From contig CAJXIY010000027.1 in NCBI GenBank assembly GCA_913054495.1, positions 1 to 34,011 on the forward strand: a DNA stretch of 34,011 bases, in the 5' to 3' direction. The stretch comes from an uncultured Gammaproteobacteria bacterium (GTDB taxonomy: Bacteria > Pseudomonadota > Gammaproteobacteria > Pseudomonadales > Pseudohongiellaceae). How positions within the stretch are numbered: position 1 is the stretch's first letter; the number at the start of each line of letters is the position of its first letter. Both the position numbers and the translations under genes were made by a program. Shown piece after piece: positions 3,262 through 21,332 of this stretch. The notes under the pieces are model-generated. The model did no database searches. It was given only the letters and a program-made list of their open reading frames with translations, and was not told the origin of the DNA.

Positions 3262-5706
3262 CTAGTTTGCCGGGACCAGATCGAGTCTCTCGAACAATAC
3301 GGTCTCAATTTTCTCCCGAGAATAAAATACCGGAAATACCTTGTCGTTTGCCCACAGCTCGAACAGATTGTCGTAAAACGGGCTATCGGGATCCCCCACC
3401 TGCCCCGGTGTGTTCATGCCCAGGGTGTTGTCCCAATCCCGGGTATCCACAAAGATTCTGAAGGACGCGCCGGAGGTTTGATTGTCGCCGCTGCCGTTAG
3501 CACCCACGGTAAAACCGTTGCCTCCGCGTGGAACCGGTCCCACGTTGAGTCGTGAACGTAATTCATCATTGACTGCCGCCCCCAGGGGATGACGAATCTC
3601 GGCATGTTTGTAATCTGCCTGGCCATAGACCCAGTTTTGAATGTTAGGCCCGAGTTTCTCGCGCAGGTTCGCTACTCCCTGGGCCAATGTAGCGAGCAGG
3701 AAATCATCCCGCCCTGCGATTGGATCGTCGCCGAAGTCGCCATCCGGCGCCAGCAGCATGTCGATGCTGGTCTTCATGCCCAGGTTCAGATAGCTCGAGG
3801 CGATTTCCGGTACTTTCAAGGCTTCCATGTTATCCAGTAACTGGCGCTCGAAGGCGACGTAGATGCCGGCTTCGATGGAGTCTTTGTCCAGCACAAAATC
3901 CCAGTTCATCAGCATCTGTCTCGCGGTTTCCACCTGGGGGTCTGTCGCTCTCAGGTCTTTGAAAAACGGCATCAATGTGCGGGCGGGAATGGACAGATAA
4001 TCATGCTGCAACTGCACCATATCCATCATGTTGAATTTACGACCCGAGGCCAGGACTTCACTGGCGCGGGCCCAGCGGTAGGGATCGGTCCAGGTATAAC
4101 CGATGGCATCGAGATAGGGATAATCTGGCGTGGTGTAGTTGCTGTTGGAGGTCTCGATATAACCGCGGTCTGGATTGAATTCGTTCGGCTTGGCGGTGAT
4201 GGGTAGATAACCGTCCCATTCGAAGCGACCATCGCCGGGCACCGGCACCATGCCGCTGAAATTTCTCCTTACCGGTGCAATACCCACTGCCTGCCAGCCG
4301 ATGTTGCCGTCGCGGTCGGCCCAGATCATATTTTCCCCGGGGATATTGCTGTAATTCGTCGCCGCCCTGAATTCTTCCCAGTTCGTAGCCTGGTCCATGC
4401 GCAGGGACGCCAGATAAGGTGCACCCCCTACTTCCATCCAGGCTGGTCGCACGGCATAGGCCAGGTTCTTGTCGCGGTCTTCGAAGGTCACCGGACCATG
4501 TCGCGTGTATTTCAGTGCCACAGTTACCGGGGCACTGCCCTTCACATCGATCGTCTCCTCGATAATGCGCATCTCCTCCCATTGACCCTGGTAGCGATAC
4601 TGGTTGGGATTGTCTGGATTGGTTTCATAGACATAGAGATCTTCACCGTCGGTGGAAAATACGGTGAGGCCCCAGGCACCGTACTGATTGTGGCCAATGG
4701 AAATACCCGGAATCTCTGGTTCGCCACCACCGAGAACGTCCCAGCCGGGGCCTACCAAATGCGCCCAGTAGCGCAACGATGGCACGGACTGCGCGCGGTG
4801 AGGATCATTGATCATCATCGGCCAGCCATCCTGGGTCAGATCTCCACTGATGACCCAGTTGTTGCTGCCAATATCGTCTATGGATCGTTTTCGTAAATGC
4901 ATTTCCTCCTGCATCAAGGTATTGGCAATCTGCTGAAATTCGGCGTCAGTATTGCGCAATTCCGCCACTACAATGTCAGCGGGTTCGATTCGCAGACCAC
5001 GTCGATAGGCATTGTAAAGATACAGAATGTCGTTATTGAGCAGAGAATCGCAGTCGATCATGGGATCCAGTGTCAGATCGGGCTCATGGGGATGGAAATA
5101 CTGTAACTCCTTAACCATCGCCGCGCCGATGCTGCACACTGCCCGGCCGGTATTGAGCTCCCTGCCAATATTTCCCAACAGTCCCTGGTGTCGGGAGATA
5201 ACCACTTCTTCGGTCCAGTGCCTGGGTTGAATGCCCAGTAGCTTGAATGGCAGTGGCAGATCTTCTGGTTTTTGCAAGGCCTCATCTATGTAGGCGTTAA
5301 CACCGTGGACGAAGGCGGTGATGATATCGACGCCCCGGGGATGATAGTGATTCATTTCCTGGGCCATATAGCCCCGAAACTTAAACAGGCGGGTGCCATG
5401 ATCCCGGTCTATCATGCGCGGGCCGAAAATCTCGGCGGTGGTGCCGGTGGCCTGGGCCCGCCAGATTTCAAACTGAAACAGGCGATCCCGCGCCGCACTA
5501 TAACCCTGCGCGAAAAACAGGTCGTGCTCGGTTTCGGCGTAGATATGGGAAATGCCCCACTTGTCTTTCAGTATTTCAACAGTTTGATCCAGGCCCTCGA
5601 GGCGGACTGTTGCGGTTCCCTGTCCGAACACGGGCGCGGCAAGAATGCTGAACAGGGTCATGGCAGCTGCTGCGCTGGGAAGTCTGGAGAGTCGGTCAGC
5701 TGGCAT
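3262..5706 (-). CDS. Penicillin acylase family Ntn hydrolase, secreted
   Basis: An 814-residue precursor. ATG 5706 has AGAGG eight bases upstream. A Sec signal peptide ends near A-P-V-F-G-Q (about 23-29). The alpha-chain part carries D-K-W-G-I-S-H-I-Y-A and A-Q-G-Y-S-A-A-R-D-R-L-F-Q, both typical of the family. The autocatalytic boundary is seen as D-I-G-S-N-N-W with Ser281 as the new N-terminal nucleophile, leaving a beta chain of about 534 residues. N-M-I-W-A-D-R-D-G-N-I-G-W gives the oxyanion-hole region. Members of PF01804 hydrolyse amide bonds of penicillins, N-acyl homoserine lactones or other N-acyl compounds in the periplasm; which one cannot be read here. It is likely cotranscribed with the downstream amidohydrolase. 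Confidence 0.93.
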   Translation of the reverse strand: MPADRLSRLPSAAAAMTLFSILAAPVFGQGTATVRLEGLDQTVEILKDKWGISHIYAETEHDLFFAQGYSAARDRLFQFEIWRAQATGTTAEIFGPRMIDRDHGTRLFKFRGYMAQEMNHYHPRGVDIITAFVHGVNAYIDEALQKPEDLPLPFKLLGIQPRHWTEEVVISRHQGLLGNIGRELNTGRAVCSIGAAMVKELQYFHPHEPDLTLDPMIDCDSLLNNDILYLYNAYRRGLRIEPADIVVAELRNTDAEFQQIANTLMQEEMHLRKRSIDDIGSNNWVISGDLTQDGWPMMINDPHRAQSVPSLRYWAHLVGPGWDVLGGGEPEIPGISIGHNQYGAWGLTVFSTDGEDLYVYETNPDNPNQYRYQGQWEEMRIIEETIDVKGSAPVTVALKYTRHGPVTFEDRDKNLAYAVRPAWMEVGGAPYLASLRMDQATNWEEFRAATNYSNIPGENMIWADRDGNIGWQAVGIAPVRRNFSGMVPVPGDGRFEWDGYLPITAKPNEFNPDRGYIETSNSNYTTPDYPYLDAIGYTWTDPYRWARASEVLASGRKFNMMDMVQLQHDYLSIPARTLMPFFKDLRATDPQVETARQMLMNWDFVLDKDSIEAGIYVAFERQLLDNMEALKVPEIASSYLNLGMKTSIDMLLAPDGDFGDDPIAGRDDFLLATLAQGVANLREKLGPNIQNWVYGQADYKHAEIRHPLGAAVNDELRSRLNVGPVPRGGNGFTVGANGSGDNQTSGASFRIFVDTRDWDNTLGMNTPGQVGDPDSPFYDNLFELWANDKVFPVFYSREKIETVLFERLDLVPAN

Positions 5707-5800
5707 GGGATTACCTCTTGGTTCGGTGCTTGAGATCGGGTAGATGGGCCCAACTATACCCCAGAATTCAAGAAATTAGCCACGTGGGAGGGCTGACGGC

Positions 5801-6205
5801 TTACCCGGACATCGCAGCGAGCAATCTCAGGGCTTGCTCGGCTTTGTCCCTGGGCACGAAAATATGATCGTGATAGCTGGCAGCGACTACATTTGCACTT
5901 ATGCCGTGCTCTGCAAGTTTGCCAGCCACCGCAGCGGTCAGGCCGACGGCATCCAGGCTGGAGTGCACCGTCAAGGTAATCCCCTTGAACACTGATTCAT
6001 ACATGAGACCGGCTTCGTCAGCCACAATTTGTTCCAGAATCAGGCTTAGACCCTCATCCTCCTGAAAACTTGCCAGGGGCTTTAATTCGCGATAATCGAC
6101 TTGAGTTGCGTGGGCGACGGTGCAGAAAACGTAGTCCGGCTTTAACAATACCGGCGCCAAGGAAATGAGCAGACGCCTTAGATCGGTTTCACCGCTATCG
6201 TTCAT
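5801..6205 (-). CDS. ACT domain-containing protein
   Basis: A 134-residue protein starting at ATG 6205 with GGAAGAAG just upstream; the frame is open 17 codons further back, over the end of the preceding gene. The C-terminal half has an ACT-like regulatory fold: I-T-L-T-V-H-S-S-L-D-A-V-G-L-T-A-A-V-A then H-G-I-S-A-N-V-V-A-A-S-Y-H-D-H-I-F-V-P, ending with an A-L-R-L-L helix. This matches small ACT proteins (PF10000/PF13840 type) that bind small ligands such as amino acids. No catalytic domain is attached and no signal peptide is seen, so it is probably cytoplasmic. It lies 31 bases after the cyclase gene and 94 before the acylase gene, in the same direction. Confidence 0.8.
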   Translation of the reverse strand: MNDSGETDLRRLLISLAPVLLKPDYVFCTVAHATQVDYRELKPLASFQEDEGLSLILEQIVADEAGLMYESVFKGITLTVHSSLDAVGLTAAVAGKLAEHGISANVVAASYHDHIFVPRDKAEQALRLLAAMSG

Positions 6206-16759: not shown

Positions 16760-17503
16760 ATGGATTGGATGTATCTTATTCTTGCAACTTTCTTTGCATC
16801 GCTGGTTCAGTCGGCGACGGGATTCGGCTTTGCCCTGATAGCAGTCCCCTTTTTTCTGATCGTATTAAACTCATCAGACGCGATTCAGGTCGTGATTATT
16901 ATTACCCTGATCACGTCAATGTTGCATTGGGTACTAATCAGGAAAGAGACTCCGCTGGACTTGCTAAGATGGCTGTTTGTGGGCTGCACCCTGGGTTTTC
17001 CGCTGGGTGTTCTGATTTATATGCAACTGGAACTGGATGCGCTCAAAATGTTGATAGCGGTATTGATCATCTTGATCAGTATTTACAATGGCTGGCAGAT
17101 GTTCCGCAACCATCGTGCCACCCATGTGCCCGACTCTAAGGACGCAAAACCGGCGGCGCTTACGGTCGTCGGCCTCACGTCCGGGATGATGGCGAGTAGC
17201 ATGGCGATGCCGGGCCCGCCCCTGATGCTTTATTTATCGACCACCGCGCTCGACAAGAATCAAATCCGGGCGGCGATGTTTGCGTTCTTTACATTTTCCT
17301 ATGCCGGCGCGCTTATTATGCAGTCATTATTTATCGGTGTGGGACGGCAAAGCTGGGAGATGGCGGGAATTCTGACACCCGTTGCCATCATAGGATTGTT
17401 CGTCGGACAGTTACTATCGAAGAAGATCAGCGAAGCGTATTTCAAAGCGCTCGTACTAATTATTTTGTTAATGACGGGCAGCGTCATGTTGCTCAACTTA
17501 TAG
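16760..17503 (+). CDS. TauE/SafE family anion exporter (possible CuyZ-like sulfite exporter)
   Basis: A 247-residue membrane protein with seven or eight helices. The first half holds A-T-F-F-A-S-L-V-Q-S-A-T-G-F-G-F-A-L-I-A-V-P, the family's first repeat signature; the second repeat is G-L-T-S-G-M-M-A-S-S-M-A-M-P-G-P-P-L-M-L. This matches PF01925 TauE/SafE, which exports sulfite, sulfoacetate or related anions. ATG 16760 is used, though ATG 16769 is possible; neither has a strong ribosome site. The gene ends 16 bases before a PLP lyase gene. In cysteate degraders (cuyZ-cuyA in Roseovarius) a TauE-type exporter is paired with such a lyase to dispose of sulfite, so the same job is proposed here by inference. 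Confidence 0.9.
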   Translation: MDWMYLILATFFASLVQSATGFGFALIAVPFFLIVLNSSDAIQVVIIITLITSMLHWVLIRKETPLDLLRWLFVGCTLGFPLGVLIYMQLELDALKMLIAVLIILISIYNGWQMFRNHRATHVPDSKDAKPAALTVVGLTSGMMASSMAMPGPPLMLYLSTTALDKNQIRAAMFAFFTFSYAGALIMQSLFIGVGRQSWEMAGILTPVAIIGLFVGQLLSKKISEAYFKALVLIILLMTGSVMLLNL

Positions 17504-17519
17504 GAAAGATGAAAATTAC

Positions 17520-18536
17520 ATGCTAACTGACAAATTCCCAAGAGCCATCCTGTCGCACACCCCAACACCCCTTGAGTTTCTAAAAAACATGACTTCGAAT
17601 CTTGGGGGCGCAGATATCTGGATAAAACGGGACGACTGCACCGGCCTCGCCATGGGGGGAAATAAATCCAGGCAACTGGAATATTATTTGGGCGAGGCGA
17701 TTGCGCAGAAAGCCGACACCATTCTCATCACCGGTGCCGTGCAATCCAATTACGCTCGCTGCGCCGTTGCCGCCGCCCGAAAATGCGGTATGGAAGTTGA
17801 AGTGCAACTGGAAGATAGAACCCCCGATCGACCCCAGGAGTACCACAATTCCGGAAATCCCTATTTGATGAAGATGATGGGCGCAAAAATCCATTATTAT
17901 CCAGACGGCGAAGATGAGGAAGGCGCGGACAATTCACTCTATGAAATGGCAGAAAAGTTAAGGAGTGACGGCAAAAATCCCTACGTGATTCCCCTCAGCG
18001 GAAGTCAACCGCCCCTGGGTGCACTGGGATATGTCGATTGTGCGGAAGAACTGTTGCAGCAGTTTGACGAGTTAAAGCTTCAAGTAGATGGCATTATTAT
18101 TGGCACAGGCAGCGCCATGACCCACGCGGGACTGCTCGCAGGTCTACGCGCAATGGCGAGCAAGATTCCGGTTTATGGATTTTGCGTGAGGCGCGATAAA
18201 GCATCTCAGACCCTTCGCGTGTTCGAAAAAGCCAAAATAGTAGCTGAAATGATTGGCCACCCGGGCATCATCAGTGCCGACGATATTTGGGTTGATGACA
18301 GGATGTTGCGCCCGGGGTATGGGCAGCTTAATAGCGATGTTTTATCAGCGATTCATAAAACCGCCGAATGTGAAGGCATCCTGATAGATCCGGTTTATAC
18401 CGGGAAGGCCATGGCTGGGCTGATTTACCTGGTTGAGAACAAACATTTTTCTGCAGATCAAAATATCGTATTTCTTCACTCGGGAGGCACACCGGCGGTA
18501 TTCGGGTATCCTGAAATTCTCGAAGAGAAACTATGA
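17520..18536 (+). CDS. PLP-dependent D-cysteine desulfhydrase/L-cysteate sulfo-lyase family enzyme
   Basis: A 338-residue fold-type II PLP enzyme. Start ATG 17520, with AGGAAAG upstream. The PLP lysine is K49 in G-G-N-K-S-R-Q-L-E; I-K-R-D-D precedes it. T-G-A-V-Q-S-N-Y-A-R is the substrate loop, with Tyr where many relatives have His or Gln. I-G-T-G-S-A-M-T-H-A-G-L holds the phosphate-binding turn, and I-D-P-V-Y-T-G-K-A-M-A-G-L and H-S-G-G-T-P-A-V-F-G are family landmarks. The family covers ACC deaminase, D-cysteine desulfhydrase and L-cysteate sulfo-lyase (CuyA). Being next to a TauE exporter favours a sulfite-releasing lyase, yielding pyruvate and ammonium; this is inference. The stop overlaps the convergent permease gene's stop by six bases. 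Confidence 0.88.
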   Translation: MLTDKFPRAILSHTPTPLEFLKNMTSNLGGADIWIKRDDCTGLAMGGNKSRQLEYYLGEAIAQKADTILITGAVQSNYARCAVAAARKCGMEVEVQLEDRTPDRPQEYHNSGNPYLMKMMGAKIHYYPDGEDEEGADNSLYEMAEKLRSDGKNPYVIPLSGSQPPLGALGYVDCAEELLQQFDELKLQVDGIIIGTGSAMTHAGLLAGLRAMASKIPVYGFCVRRDKASQTLRVFEKAKIVAEMIGHPGIISADDIWVDDRMLRPGYGQLNSDVLSAIHKTAECEGILIDPVYTGKAMAGLIYLVENKHFSADQNIVFLHSGGTPAVFGYPEILEEKL

Positions 18537-19850
18537 TTGCGCTGGTTTCCTTTTGAATTGCTTATTGGCAAAATAGAAGAGATTTCCGAGCATCATAAAC
18601 CCAATCAGGTAGACCCAGGAATTCAAAGTTGCCTGTGAAATAGCGAAGGCAATCACCAGCAAGGCGATTCCTGGGACAAAAAACCCACCGGCCAGGGGCA
18701 TTGCTTCCCGGGCCGTCTCTGCGTCGGCATTCTTTTTGATTATGGGCAAGGCAAGCGTGCAAATCCCATAGGCCATCATCCTCGCCAGCGCACTGGCCAC
18801 CGCAAGATACACAAAGGTTCCGGATATCGCCAATAGAAACACCAATGTGCTGAAAAATAAAATTGAGTTCACCGGTGTATTGTATTTTGCCTGGATCATG
18901 CCAAACCATTCAGGCAAGTCCCCGTCTCTGGACATGGTGAATGAAATTCTGGAACTGGAAATAAGTGAACTCGTCACATTACCGGTAATTGAAAAAATAG
19001 CAGTTAAGATAATCACTACGACTCCAGCGGTTCCCAGTAACGCTCTCCCCATCTCCACAAGCGGTGCGCCGTCGTTGCCCTCTGGAGCCACTGCAACGTA
19101 AGCAAGCTGAACTAAAAAATAGAACACCGTGATGAACAACATCATGGTTATCAGCGCCCTTGGCATGGTTTTTTTAGGGTTTTTGGTTTCCCCTGCACTC
19201 ACCAACGACGATTCAAATCCAACAAAGGCAAATAGAATGAGAAGCGTAAGTGCGCCAGCGTCATCGATGCGGGGAAATTCACTGGGTATAAGAACTTCAG
19301 GCGTTAAATATTGAAACGCGAGAATGATCATGACAAGCAGTGGCAGCGTCTTGAAGAACGTCAGGATATTGATGACCTGAATGGCCTTTTTGATGCCGAG
19401 AACATTGATAAAAGTAAGCAGCGCAATGACCAGAAAGATCATGAAATCGCGCAATAATCCACCCGTTGCGCCATCCCAAAGATAGGCGACATAGTCAAAC
19501 AACACATTAACATTGGCGGCAAAGGAGGCCACCCGTCCCATATAGAGCAGCCAACCAGTCTGAAAACCGGCCCAAGGACCAAACGCAGAGCCGGCGTACA
19601 AAATGGGGCCCCCGGTATTACTGAAATAGCTGGCCAGTACCGCGAAGGTTAAGACAACGGGAATGATCAACACACCGAATATGAGAAACAGCCAGGGACT
19701 GAAACTTCCCGCCATCTCCATGAGTGTGCCCGGCAAGCCATAGATCCCCGCGCCAATCACACAATTGAGAACCAGGAACAAGGCTCCCCATTTACCAATA
19801 TCCCGTTTTAACCCGGCCGATGATTCTTCGTTCGTTTCCCTACCAGCCAT
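18531..19850 (-). CDS. APC family amino-acid permease
   Basis: A 439-residue polytopic protein with about 12 hydrophobic helices. ATG 19850 follows an AGGGGGA ribosome site. The first helix has the APC signature L-N-C-V-I-G-A-G-I-Y-G-L-P-G, and helix 6 contains F-A-F-V-G-F-E-S-S-L-V-S-A-G-E-T-K-N-P-K-K-T-M-P, typical of PF13520/PF00324 amino-acid and polyamine transporters. Substrate cannot be told from sequence. It is convergent with the PLP lyase gene and shares its last six bases, where CTA is a Leu codon one way and a TAG stop the other. Its location suggests it could import the lyase substrate, but it is not in the same operon. Confidence 0.92.
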   Translation of the reverse strand: MAGRETNEESSAGLKRDIGKWGALFLVLNCVIGAGIYGLPGTLMEMAGSFSPWLFLIFGVLIIPVVLTFAVLASYFSNTGGPILYAGSAFGPWAGFQTGWLLYMGRVASFAANVNVLFDYVAYLWDGATGGLLRDFMIFLVIALLTFINVLGIKKAIQVINILTFFKTLPLLVMIILAFQYLTPEVLIPSEFPRIDDAGALTLLILFAFVGFESSLVSAGETKNPKKTMPRALITMMLFITVFYFLVQLAYVAVAPEGNDGAPLVEMGRALLGTAGVVVIILTAIFSITGNVTSSLISSSRISFTMSRDGDLPEWFGMIQAKYNTPVNSILFFSTLVFLLAISGTFVYLAVASALARMMAYGICTLALPIIKKNADAETAREAMPLAGGFFVPGIALLVIAFAISQATLNSWVYLIGFMMLGNLFYFANKQFKRKPAQS

Positions 19851-20072: not shown

Positions 20073-21332
20073 ATGAGTCGCAGAAAATTTTTGATAGCCA
20101 TGGGTGGTATCGCCATCGCCTCGACACCTGGAATCCTGTTGGCCGGACGCTCGCGTCTCGCTGTGGGCGTCATCGGAGGCGGCATCATGGGCGCTTCGAT
20201 TGCCTTACACCTTGCTCAGGCCGGAGTCGACGTCACCGTATTCGAAAAAACGGCCATTGCCAGCGGCGCCACCGGTAAATCCTTCGCCTGGCTGAATGCA
20301 TTCAGTGATGACTCACACTACCGGGATCTCAGGTTGCAGAGCCTGCGGGCTTATCACCAACTGGAGGCGGAGATGCAGTTGGATATCACCTGGGGCGGCA
20401 GCCTGCTGTGGAAGCAGCAACCTGAGGCCGCAGCAGCACTAAGTGAGCGCGCGCAAAGATTGGACCGAGCCGGCTATAGAATGAGCGTTCTGGGGCCGAA
20501 AGAGTTTTCTGAGCTGGCGCCAAATCTTGCGCCCGGTGCATTTGAAACCGCCGTCTATGCGGGCCTGGATGGGCATCTCGATCCCGTTCAAGTGACCAAT
20601 AAATTTCTCGATCAAGCCAGGAAATATGGCGCTCGGGTGCTCTATCCCTGTGAGGTGACGGATCTGAAATTTTCTGGCAGTCGCCTGACCGGCGTTGCCA
20701 CTACCAGTGGAGAATACTCCCTGGACCGACTCGTGATCGCGGCGGGGGTCGACACGCCGGCCCTGGCAGCAAAGATCGACTATGTTGCGCCGCTGAAACA
20801 CGCACCGGGAATTCTTGCCCACAGCGTGCCTCTACGACCGCTTATTCGAACGGTAAACGAGCATCTGCCAGTCTCCTTCAAACAAACCTCAAGCGGCAGT
20901 ATCGTCGGCACAGACAGTTACTATGCGCCGGAGATTCCCGCGCATCGCGATATCCTGCAAGGGCGTCAGGATTTTCCCGGCATGGAGCTACGTAGCCTGC
21001 ATGGCAGACGTATCCTGGACAGGATTGCGACTATGCTTCCGGGTGCGCGTGGTGTAGGTCTGCAACGATTGACTCTGGGTTTTCGACCACTGCCCGAAGA
21101 TGGCTTTCCCATCGTCGGCTATATTCCGGGATTCGACGATGTCTATATTGCCGTCACCCACAGCGGTGTTACCCTGGCCGCCATCATGGGCGAGATAATT
21201 CGTCGCGAGATTCTCACTGATATAACGCTCGACGCCTTTGCACCCTATAGGCCGCAGCGGTTTATCGGCCAGGTCGCTCATTCTCAAGCCACCGACGACA
21301 AAGCTCGCCTCCTCTCAGCGGTCAATGATTGA
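20073..21332 (+). CDS. Tat-signal FAD-dependent oxidoreductase (DAO family)
   Basis: A 419-residue protein. It starts M-S-R-R-K-F-L-I-A-M-G-G, a Tat signal with hydrophobic segment to residue 25. The FAD site follows at once: V-G-V-I-G-G-G-I-M-G-A-S (31-42), V-T-V-F-E-K (acidic end of strand two), then G-A-T-G-K-S-F-A-W-L-N-A. Late in the protein, L-G-F-R-P-L-P-E-D-G-F-P-I-V-G and V-T-H-S-G-V-T-L complete the PF01266 fold (glycine/D-amino acid oxidase type). Most relatives oxidise amines or imino acids in the cytoplasm; this copy appears exported with its flavin. Substrate unknown. ATG 20073 has a weak ribosome site (CAGGA, rather far). The promoter region includes the perfect palindrome. Confidence 0.9.
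   Translation: MSRRKFLIAMGGIAIASTPGILLAGRSRLAVGVIGGGIMGASIALHLAQAGVDVTVFEKTAIASGATGKSFAWLNAFSDDSHYRDLRLQSLRAYHQLEAEMQLDITWGGSLLWKQQPEAAAALSERAQRLDRAGYRMSVLGPKEFSELAPNLAPGAFETAVYAGLDGHLDPVQVTNKFLDQARKYGARVLYPCEVTDLKFSGSRLTGVATTSGEYSLDRLVIAAGVDTPALAAKIDYVAPLKHAPGILAHSVPLRPLIRTVNEHLPVSFKQTSSGSIVGTDSYYAPEIPAHRDILQGRQDFPGMELRSLHGRRILDRIATMLPGARGVGLQRLTLGFRPLPEDGFPIVGYIPGFDDVYIAVTHSGVTLAAIMGEIIRREILTDITLDAFAPYRPQRFIGQVAHSQATDDKARLLSAVND

Follow-up and report, generated by a model that had tools for sequence, protein, structure and literature searches.

The closest known counterpart of the locus reported here is the cuyA-cuyZ pair of Ruegeria pomeroyi DSS-3 (megaplasmid NC_006569; L086 among our loci), in which a lyase gene of a pyridoxal 5'-phosphate (PLP)-dependent superfamily stands beside a gene for a membrane exporter. 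We equated this pair with SPOA0158/SPOA0157 of PMC4334477 by gene order and replicon rather than by locus tag. The racemase CuyB interconverts L- and D-cysteate, of which D-cysteate is the preferred substrate of CuyA (PMC11382572). A second relative is DcyD of E. coli (b1919, L198) and Salmonella (PDB 4d8t), in which Lys51, Ser78, Tyr261, Tyr287, Thr288 and Thr315 have been studied and roles described for the PLP lysine, the serine specificity residue, the tyrosine pair and Thr288 (PMC3344862). We analyzed a stretch of 34,011 nucleotides, referred to as the window, which is contig CAJXIY010000027.1 (C27) of assembly GCA_913054495.1 from an uncultured gammaproteobacterium of the Pseudohongiellaceae (genome of 3,385,933 bases, assembled into 201 contigs with a completeness of 99.3%). 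Within the window, a gene for a TauE/SafE (TSUP) family transporter is followed by one for a PLP-dependent lyase of the same superfamily as CuyA, 45.8% identical to the R. pomeroyi protein. As described below, this lyase belongs to a clade marked by a GGNKxRQ motif, and exporter and lyase form a conserved, co-inherited unit.

The transporter gene (16760-17503, forward strand) encodes 247 amino acids, a putative exporter of the leaving group, and matches PF01925 at 111.7 bits (cut-off 32.6 bits) over profile positions 1-237. Its N-terminal QSATGFGF-type run lies where L001, a further TSUP protein encoded in this genome, shows GVGGG, and a sequence search returned no solved relative at E <= 0.1. 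Sixteen bases separate its end at 17503 from the ATG of the lyase gene (17520-18536, forward strand), whose product of 338 amino acids is predicted to be beta-eliminating and matches PF00291 at 154.5 bits (cut-off 35 bits). The initial annotation of this DNA had described a TauE/SafE exporter, a PLP lyase 16 bases on and a permease ending against them, and the open reading frames lie exactly in that arrangement.

Relatives of the lyase were collected, and every ratio given below describes this sample. Loci L006-L085 stem from one scan of named genomes with the window lyase as seed, in which 80 of 107 relatives were kept, and loci after L085 are best-scoring matches. The lyase set was widened with more genomes, plasmid records and E. 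coli to 192 matches covering at least 70% of the profile; merging, with none dropped for length, left 159 distinct sequences, of which 41 were of the RQ type (GGNKxRQ), 117 of the RK type and one of neither. A careful tree was built from 83 sequences, the 41 clade members and 42 hand-picked others, with the signature columns removed. The GGNKxRQ clade fell on one side of a branch at 100/100, with the CuyA group (92/94) as its nearest neighbor, joined at 86/75, and with E. coli DcyD and sequences of the 1-aminocyclopropane-1-carboxylate (ACC) deaminase type further off. A quick tree of 160 sequences that retained the signature columns supported the clade at 99. Among NCBIfam models, the best match of the window lyase was CuyA (NF052482) at 388.6 bits, under the cut-off of 450, and CuyA was also the best model for five further clade members. 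Five CuyA-group proteins, the R. pomeroyi DSS-3 megaplasmid protein among them, pass this cut-off at 515-553 bits. The DcyD equivalog models gave 270.4, 243 and 240.3 bits against cut-offs of 429, 610 and 469, and the D-cysteine desulfhydrase family TIGR01275 gave 268.8 bits (cut-off 289.4), which clade member L189 just exceeds at 291.1 bits. By score and by clade alike, the sequence comparisons place the lyase outside CuyA, as a sister branch of the CuyA group. The phylogeny proposed with the initial annotation thereby showed the CuyA group to be nearest, with the lyase outside both that group and E. coli-type DcyD, and no clustering with ACC deaminases was found.

An ACC deaminase was indeed among the candidates, as the window lyase shares with that enzyme the superfamily and one extra residue in the loop 158-171. 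This identity was ruled out by residues, tree position and the TIGR01274 model (224.2 bits, cut-off 392), and its probability is negligible. The site Glu and Leu of ACC deaminase (PMC3344862) are replaced by Thr294 and Ser321 in the window lyase, and position 294 is Thr or Ser, never Glu, throughout the clade. Ring opening of ACC would be unexpected because this Glu is absent.

On the present alignments, the hallmark of the clade is the GGNKxRQ motif together with a longer active-site loop, rather than the QSNY sequence. The motif reads GGNKSRQ in the window lyase (17655-17675, forward strand, bases counted from residue numbers) and holds the PLP lysine Lys49 and the clade-specific Gln52, which is present in 41 of 41 clade sequences; 118 of the 119 sequences outside the clade have Lys at this position. 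The available portion of the DcyD paper (PMC3344862) was found to make no mention of Lys54. The loop, PLSGSQPPLGALGY (residues 158-171; 17991-18032, forward strand), is one residue longer in the clade than in CuyA and DcyD sequences and carries Leu159, and further clade markers are Tyr56, Thr71, Glu133, Cys222 and Arg233. The QSNYAR loop that the initial annotation singled out is present at residues 75-80 (17742-17759, forward strand), a region in which, in Salmonella DcyD, main-chain atoms at the position matching the QSNY tyrosine bind the carboxylate (PMC3344862). The loop does not define the clade, and the substitution was rejected as the key feature, since the 41 clade sequences have Tyr (18), Phe (13) or His (10) at position 78; all 119 others have His.

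All six residues studied in Salmonella DcyD have counterparts in the window lyase, namely Lys49, Ser76, Tyr267, Tyr293, Thr294 and Ser321. The first four are found in 41 of 41 clade sequences, and Ser321 replaces Thr315 of DcyD in the genus of the window. Beta-elimination is expected because these residues have counterparts. Two arginines set the lyase apart from DcyD. Arg100 (codon at 17817-17819, forward strand) is Arg in 40 of 41 clade sequences and in R. pomeroyi CuyA, Pro in DcyD sequences and Trp in ACC-deaminase-type sequences. The corresponding residue of ACC deaminase, Trp102, presumably lies in the active site; no literature on it was found in open-licence PubMed Central. Arg224 (codon at 18189-18191, forward strand) is Arg in 41 of 41 clade sequences, in R. 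pomeroyi CuyA and in 54 of the 119 others, and Ser in DcyD and ACC-deaminase-type sequences, so that both arginines are missing from the 18 DcyD-type and seven ACC-deaminase-type sequences. A pocket positively lined by Arg100 and Arg224 suggests an acidic beta substituent, of which sulfonate is the known case. Arg224 aligns with Ser221 of Salmonella DcyD, which together with Arg222 holds a pyruvate modeled beside the active site (PMC3344862). The use of the two arginines as a CuyA criterion is a working feature of the present comparison and is unpublished. At the 15 positions that separate 49 CuyA-group from 18 DcyD sequences, the commonest residue of the clade is that of CuyA at ten, that of DcyD at three and neither at two, an agreement with CuyA of which much could come from kinship alone.

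The matching catalytic residues also bring in a reading in which the lyase clears D-cysteine or beta-chloro-D-alanine as DcyD does and the TSUP protein exports sulfide or a product. CuyA itself is able to act as a D-cysteine desulfhydrase (PMC10507020), and the nearest solved chain (PDB 7ysk, E 2.9e-89) bears that name, although it lies inside the CuyA group and has GGNKxRK instead of the GGNKxRQ of the window. Nevertheless, we regard this reading as very unlikely, given that the lyase falls outside the E. coli DcyD clade and under all three DcyD cut-offs and that Arg100 and Arg224 stand where DcyD has Pro and Ser. DcyD, in addition, adjoins genes for a cystine ABC transporter, unlike the window lyase.

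The association of the two genes was followed across the sampled loci, where TSUP and other neighbors were detected with in-house profiles. In the 80-locus scan the lyases divide at a gap in identity, with 14 at 60% or more and all others at 49% or less. A homolog of the window transporter was found by blastp upstream of the lyase and in its orientation in all 14 loci of the first kind, and in 0 of the 66 distant loci, some of which have short flanks, at 1e-8. The 14 near loci come from two members of the window's genus, Oceanospirillaceae, a Sneathiella bin, Kordiimonadaceae, Emcibacteraceae and unplaced alphaproteobacteria. In the widened set, a TSUP gene lies within 400 bp of 21 of the 41 clade members, of 0 of 117 RK-type lyases and of the single other lyase in no case, counts that a distant TSUP may escape. 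The link between clade and TSUP has a Fisher p of 4e-15 for loci with at least 900 bp upstream, a value that ignores relatedness; on the 83-sequence tree the TSUP label requires seven changes. The RK-type locus L032 has a TSUP gene 2 kb upstream of the lyase. Within an inner clade of 20 around the window, 17 members have TSUP, and two of the other three have an EamA-family transporter in its place. Upstream of the third, L171, reading the unaligned sequence by eye suggests the beginning of a TSUP gene, probably a remnant. Transporter and lyase distances correlate (Mantel r 0.94 for 21 pairs, a value that none of 2000 permutations reached), and therefore the two proteins move as a pair. Their reading frames even overlap in the outlying pairs L186, L189 and L195. 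Exporter and lyase are a conserved, co-inherited unit.

Several variations on the pair were seen among these loci. In L165 (5141-5986) and L166 (4491-5336), an EamA-family transporter replaces TSUP before the clade lyase, behind a TAXI-TRAP importer. In L006, about 316 extra bases (approximately 5685-5998) lie between the TauE and lyase genes, flanked by inverted copies of a 23-base repeat, and look like a small non-autonomous mobile element. In L168 (6639-8716), the clade lyase adjoins a PF00850 histone-deacetylase-family gene on the same strand, the ends overlapping by one base.

From the observed gene order, the conservation and co-inheritance of the pair, the clade and the residues, we infer a reaction, a substrate, a direction of transport and a role for the permease. 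The pair would be a two-gene catabolic module, for which our best single guess, held tentatively and at slightly less than an even chance, is a cysteate enantiomer as substrate and sulfite as leaving group. A small acidic beta-substituted alanine would be taken up, here perhaps through the convergent APC permease and in some relatives through a TAXI-TRAP importer. The PLP enzyme would then take the alpha proton via Tyr293 and expel the beta substituent, 2-aminoacrylate would yield pyruvate and ammonium, and the TSUP transporter would export the released anion, with sulfite as first choice. Such a module would work like cuyA-cuyZ, with an enzyme of a sister clade and an exporter of an unrelated family. 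The cuyZ-cuyA logic of the initial annotation is supported in this respect by the conserved unit, by CuyA as best model and by Arg100 and Arg224, which R. pomeroyi CuyA shares; it departs from the locus in that CuyZ is a PF03601 protein encoded downstream of cuyA, whereas the window has TSUP upstream, and in that R. pomeroyi CuyA belongs to the CuyA group whereas the window lyase, with Gln52 and the longer loop, falls in the sister group below the CuyA cut-off. Partner genes in a minority of the clade fit amino-acid import and an aminoacrylate product. L009 combines LysR, TSUP-lyase, RidA-family and TAXI-TRAP genes, and L088 has TAXI-TRAP genes, a D-amino-acid-dehydrogenase-like protein, a racemase-family protein, TSUP, lyase and RidA. 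Where 3 kb of sequence was available on either side, TAXI genes occur near five of 31 clade loci compared to 0 of 49 others, and by annotation also in L088.

A number of observations weigh against cysteate cleavage of the CuyA kind. All six clade members scanned miss the CuyA cut-off (the five besides the window lyase at 337-405 bits), and Arg224 is not universal in CuyA, as Desulfovibrio L060 passes the cut-off with Asn. CuyB exceeds its cut-off in one of 28 clade genomes versus 11 of 16 genomes with a lyase outside the clade (six of these 11 from one family and three from another). The best CuyB score in the window's own genome is 119.9 bits (cut-off 190), and the racemase of L088 was rejected as CuyB at 35.7 bits. 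With in-house profiles, CuyZ (PF03601) was found beside none of the 31 clade loci with 3 kb on both flanks; it neighbors only three of 49 loci outside the clade, hence it is a weak criterion. Moreover, 20 of the 41 clade members have no TSUP gene within 400 bp, two of them having EamA there. A TSUP protein is required for the use of alpha-ketobutyrate, which means that the cargo need not hold sulfur (PMC12671195), and TSUP cargo is broad, its prediction from sequence not being feasible (PMC12671195, PMC5840216).

Since CuyB is scarce and TSUP cargo unpredictable, the enzyme may use L-cysteate directly, or its substrate may be a different acidic amino acid. The initial annotation had suggested a sulfur substrate different from known ones, and this idea is strengthened by the active-site features peculiar to the clade and by the scarcity of CuyB. 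The same module could act on another sulfur oxyanion (cysteine sulfinate, S-sulfocysteine or serine O-sulfate), with thiosulfate or sulfate exported. Gln52 and the longer loop around the active site as well as the few CuyB genes favor this version, and Arg100 and Arg224 would suit any acidic beta group. However, no superfamily enzyme with such substrates was found in open-licence PubMed Central and the neighborhoods read held no pointer to them, which makes it possible but doubtful. A role outside sulfur metabolism is also conceivable: the lyase substrate would then be some other beta-substituted amino acid, acidic or polar, and TSUP would carry an organic acid or this substrate itself, inward or outward. 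The breadth of TSUP cargo and the TSUP-less half of the clade agree with it, and a Pfam scan of the window proteins recognized no further sulfur gene beside the pair. The EamA protein that replaces TSUP in L165 matches a phosphonate-associated model below its cut-off (163.8 bits, cut-off 288). Yet CuyA is both the nearest model and the nearest group, and we consider a non-sulfur role unlikely. Cysteate with sulfite export remains our first choice for the window. For the clade as a whole, we propose that the 41 GGNKxRQ sequences may represent a new isofunctional PLP lyase family, horizontally spread among marine and other alpha- and gammaproteobacteria and frequently accompanied by a TSUP exporter of its own. 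The substrate of this family would be an acidic amino acid, probably a sulfur oxyanion, and not D-cysteate; this proposal, too, we hold at somewhat under an even chance.

The permease gene (18531-19850, reverse strand) encodes an APC-family amino-acid permease of 439 amino acids (PF13520 153.7 bits, cut-off 27), its end overlapping that of the convergent lyase gene at 18536 by six bases. The initial annotation counted it as part of the module, which the comparison did not bear out. Permease homologs at E <= 1e-60 occur in three of 81 genus genomes, which are also the ones with the exporter-lyase pair, and an in-house profile found none within 5 kb of the other compared clade lyases. As a general component of the module the permease was rejected, since it accompanies the unit in just three closely related genomes; it may import the substrate in this lineage only. 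The window-type lyase itself was found in three of 73 genus genomes, its own included, and the next match in the genus is 38% identical. A second, distant lyase homolog of the SGNKxRK type, 32% identical, is encoded elsewhere in the window's genome (G000:C12:12631-13587, L090), and similar homologs are present in many genomes of the genus.

The TauE-lyase-permease block lies between a PhoD-like phosphatase gene, which lies 5' of the pair in the opposite direction, and a formyltransferase gene. Among 34 other genus genomes with the formyltransferase, 27 yielded loci whose flanks did not exceed 1.5 kb, and in two of these 27 (L205, L208) PhoD stands beside the formyltransferase with no block between. 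The block genes have a G+C content of 48-50% compared to 53% for the window. The block is probably a recent arrival in the genus, and a single event is possible because the three carriers are closely related.

Past the permease lie genes for a DAO-type FAD oxidoreductase (20073-21332, forward strand; PF01266 176.5 bits), a beta-lactamase-fold protein, a TetR regulator and the formyltransferase-like protein. The oxidoreductase is also found in L172 and does not adjoin the unit in L173; that it is a partner of the unit is possible but unproven. In other loci, a HalD-like PF23169 Fe(II)/2-oxoglutarate oxygenase is encoded no more than a few kb from the pair of TSUP and lyase genes (L013 1241-2026, L015 1549-2331, L017 578-1354, L018 2-622 and L170 567-1391), in two different classes. 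The HxD motif, which indicates a hydroxylase and not a halogenase, is retained, and the protein looks like a hydroxylase. A close homolog (E < 1e-80) is present in nine of the 28 clade genomes, in none of the 16 others, and is absent from the window's genome. In L011, L012, L014, L015 and L017, an S51 peptidase of the cyanophycinase type (by Pfam, for the copy in L012) is encoded 3' of the lyase in the same direction, as are genes that, read by eye, resemble cyanophycin synthetases.

Taken together, the locus probably represents ordinary chemistry in a well-marked lyase branch with a frequent, co-inherited exporter. A TauE-paired CuyA-type lyase was not found in titles or opening abstract lines of the open-licence PubMed Central literature. 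In public records (four plasmid records), clade members are labeled as D-cysteine desulfhydrase family proteins, and under such names a survey might enter them as dcyD or cuyA. Should the clade be a distinct enzyme that has an exporter of its own, the turnover of sulfonates and cysteine is currently misassigned, and the pair would be a unit of two genes with few candidate substrates. If the clade acts on an acidic amino acid other than D-cysteate, it would represent an overlooked route in organosulfur turnover.

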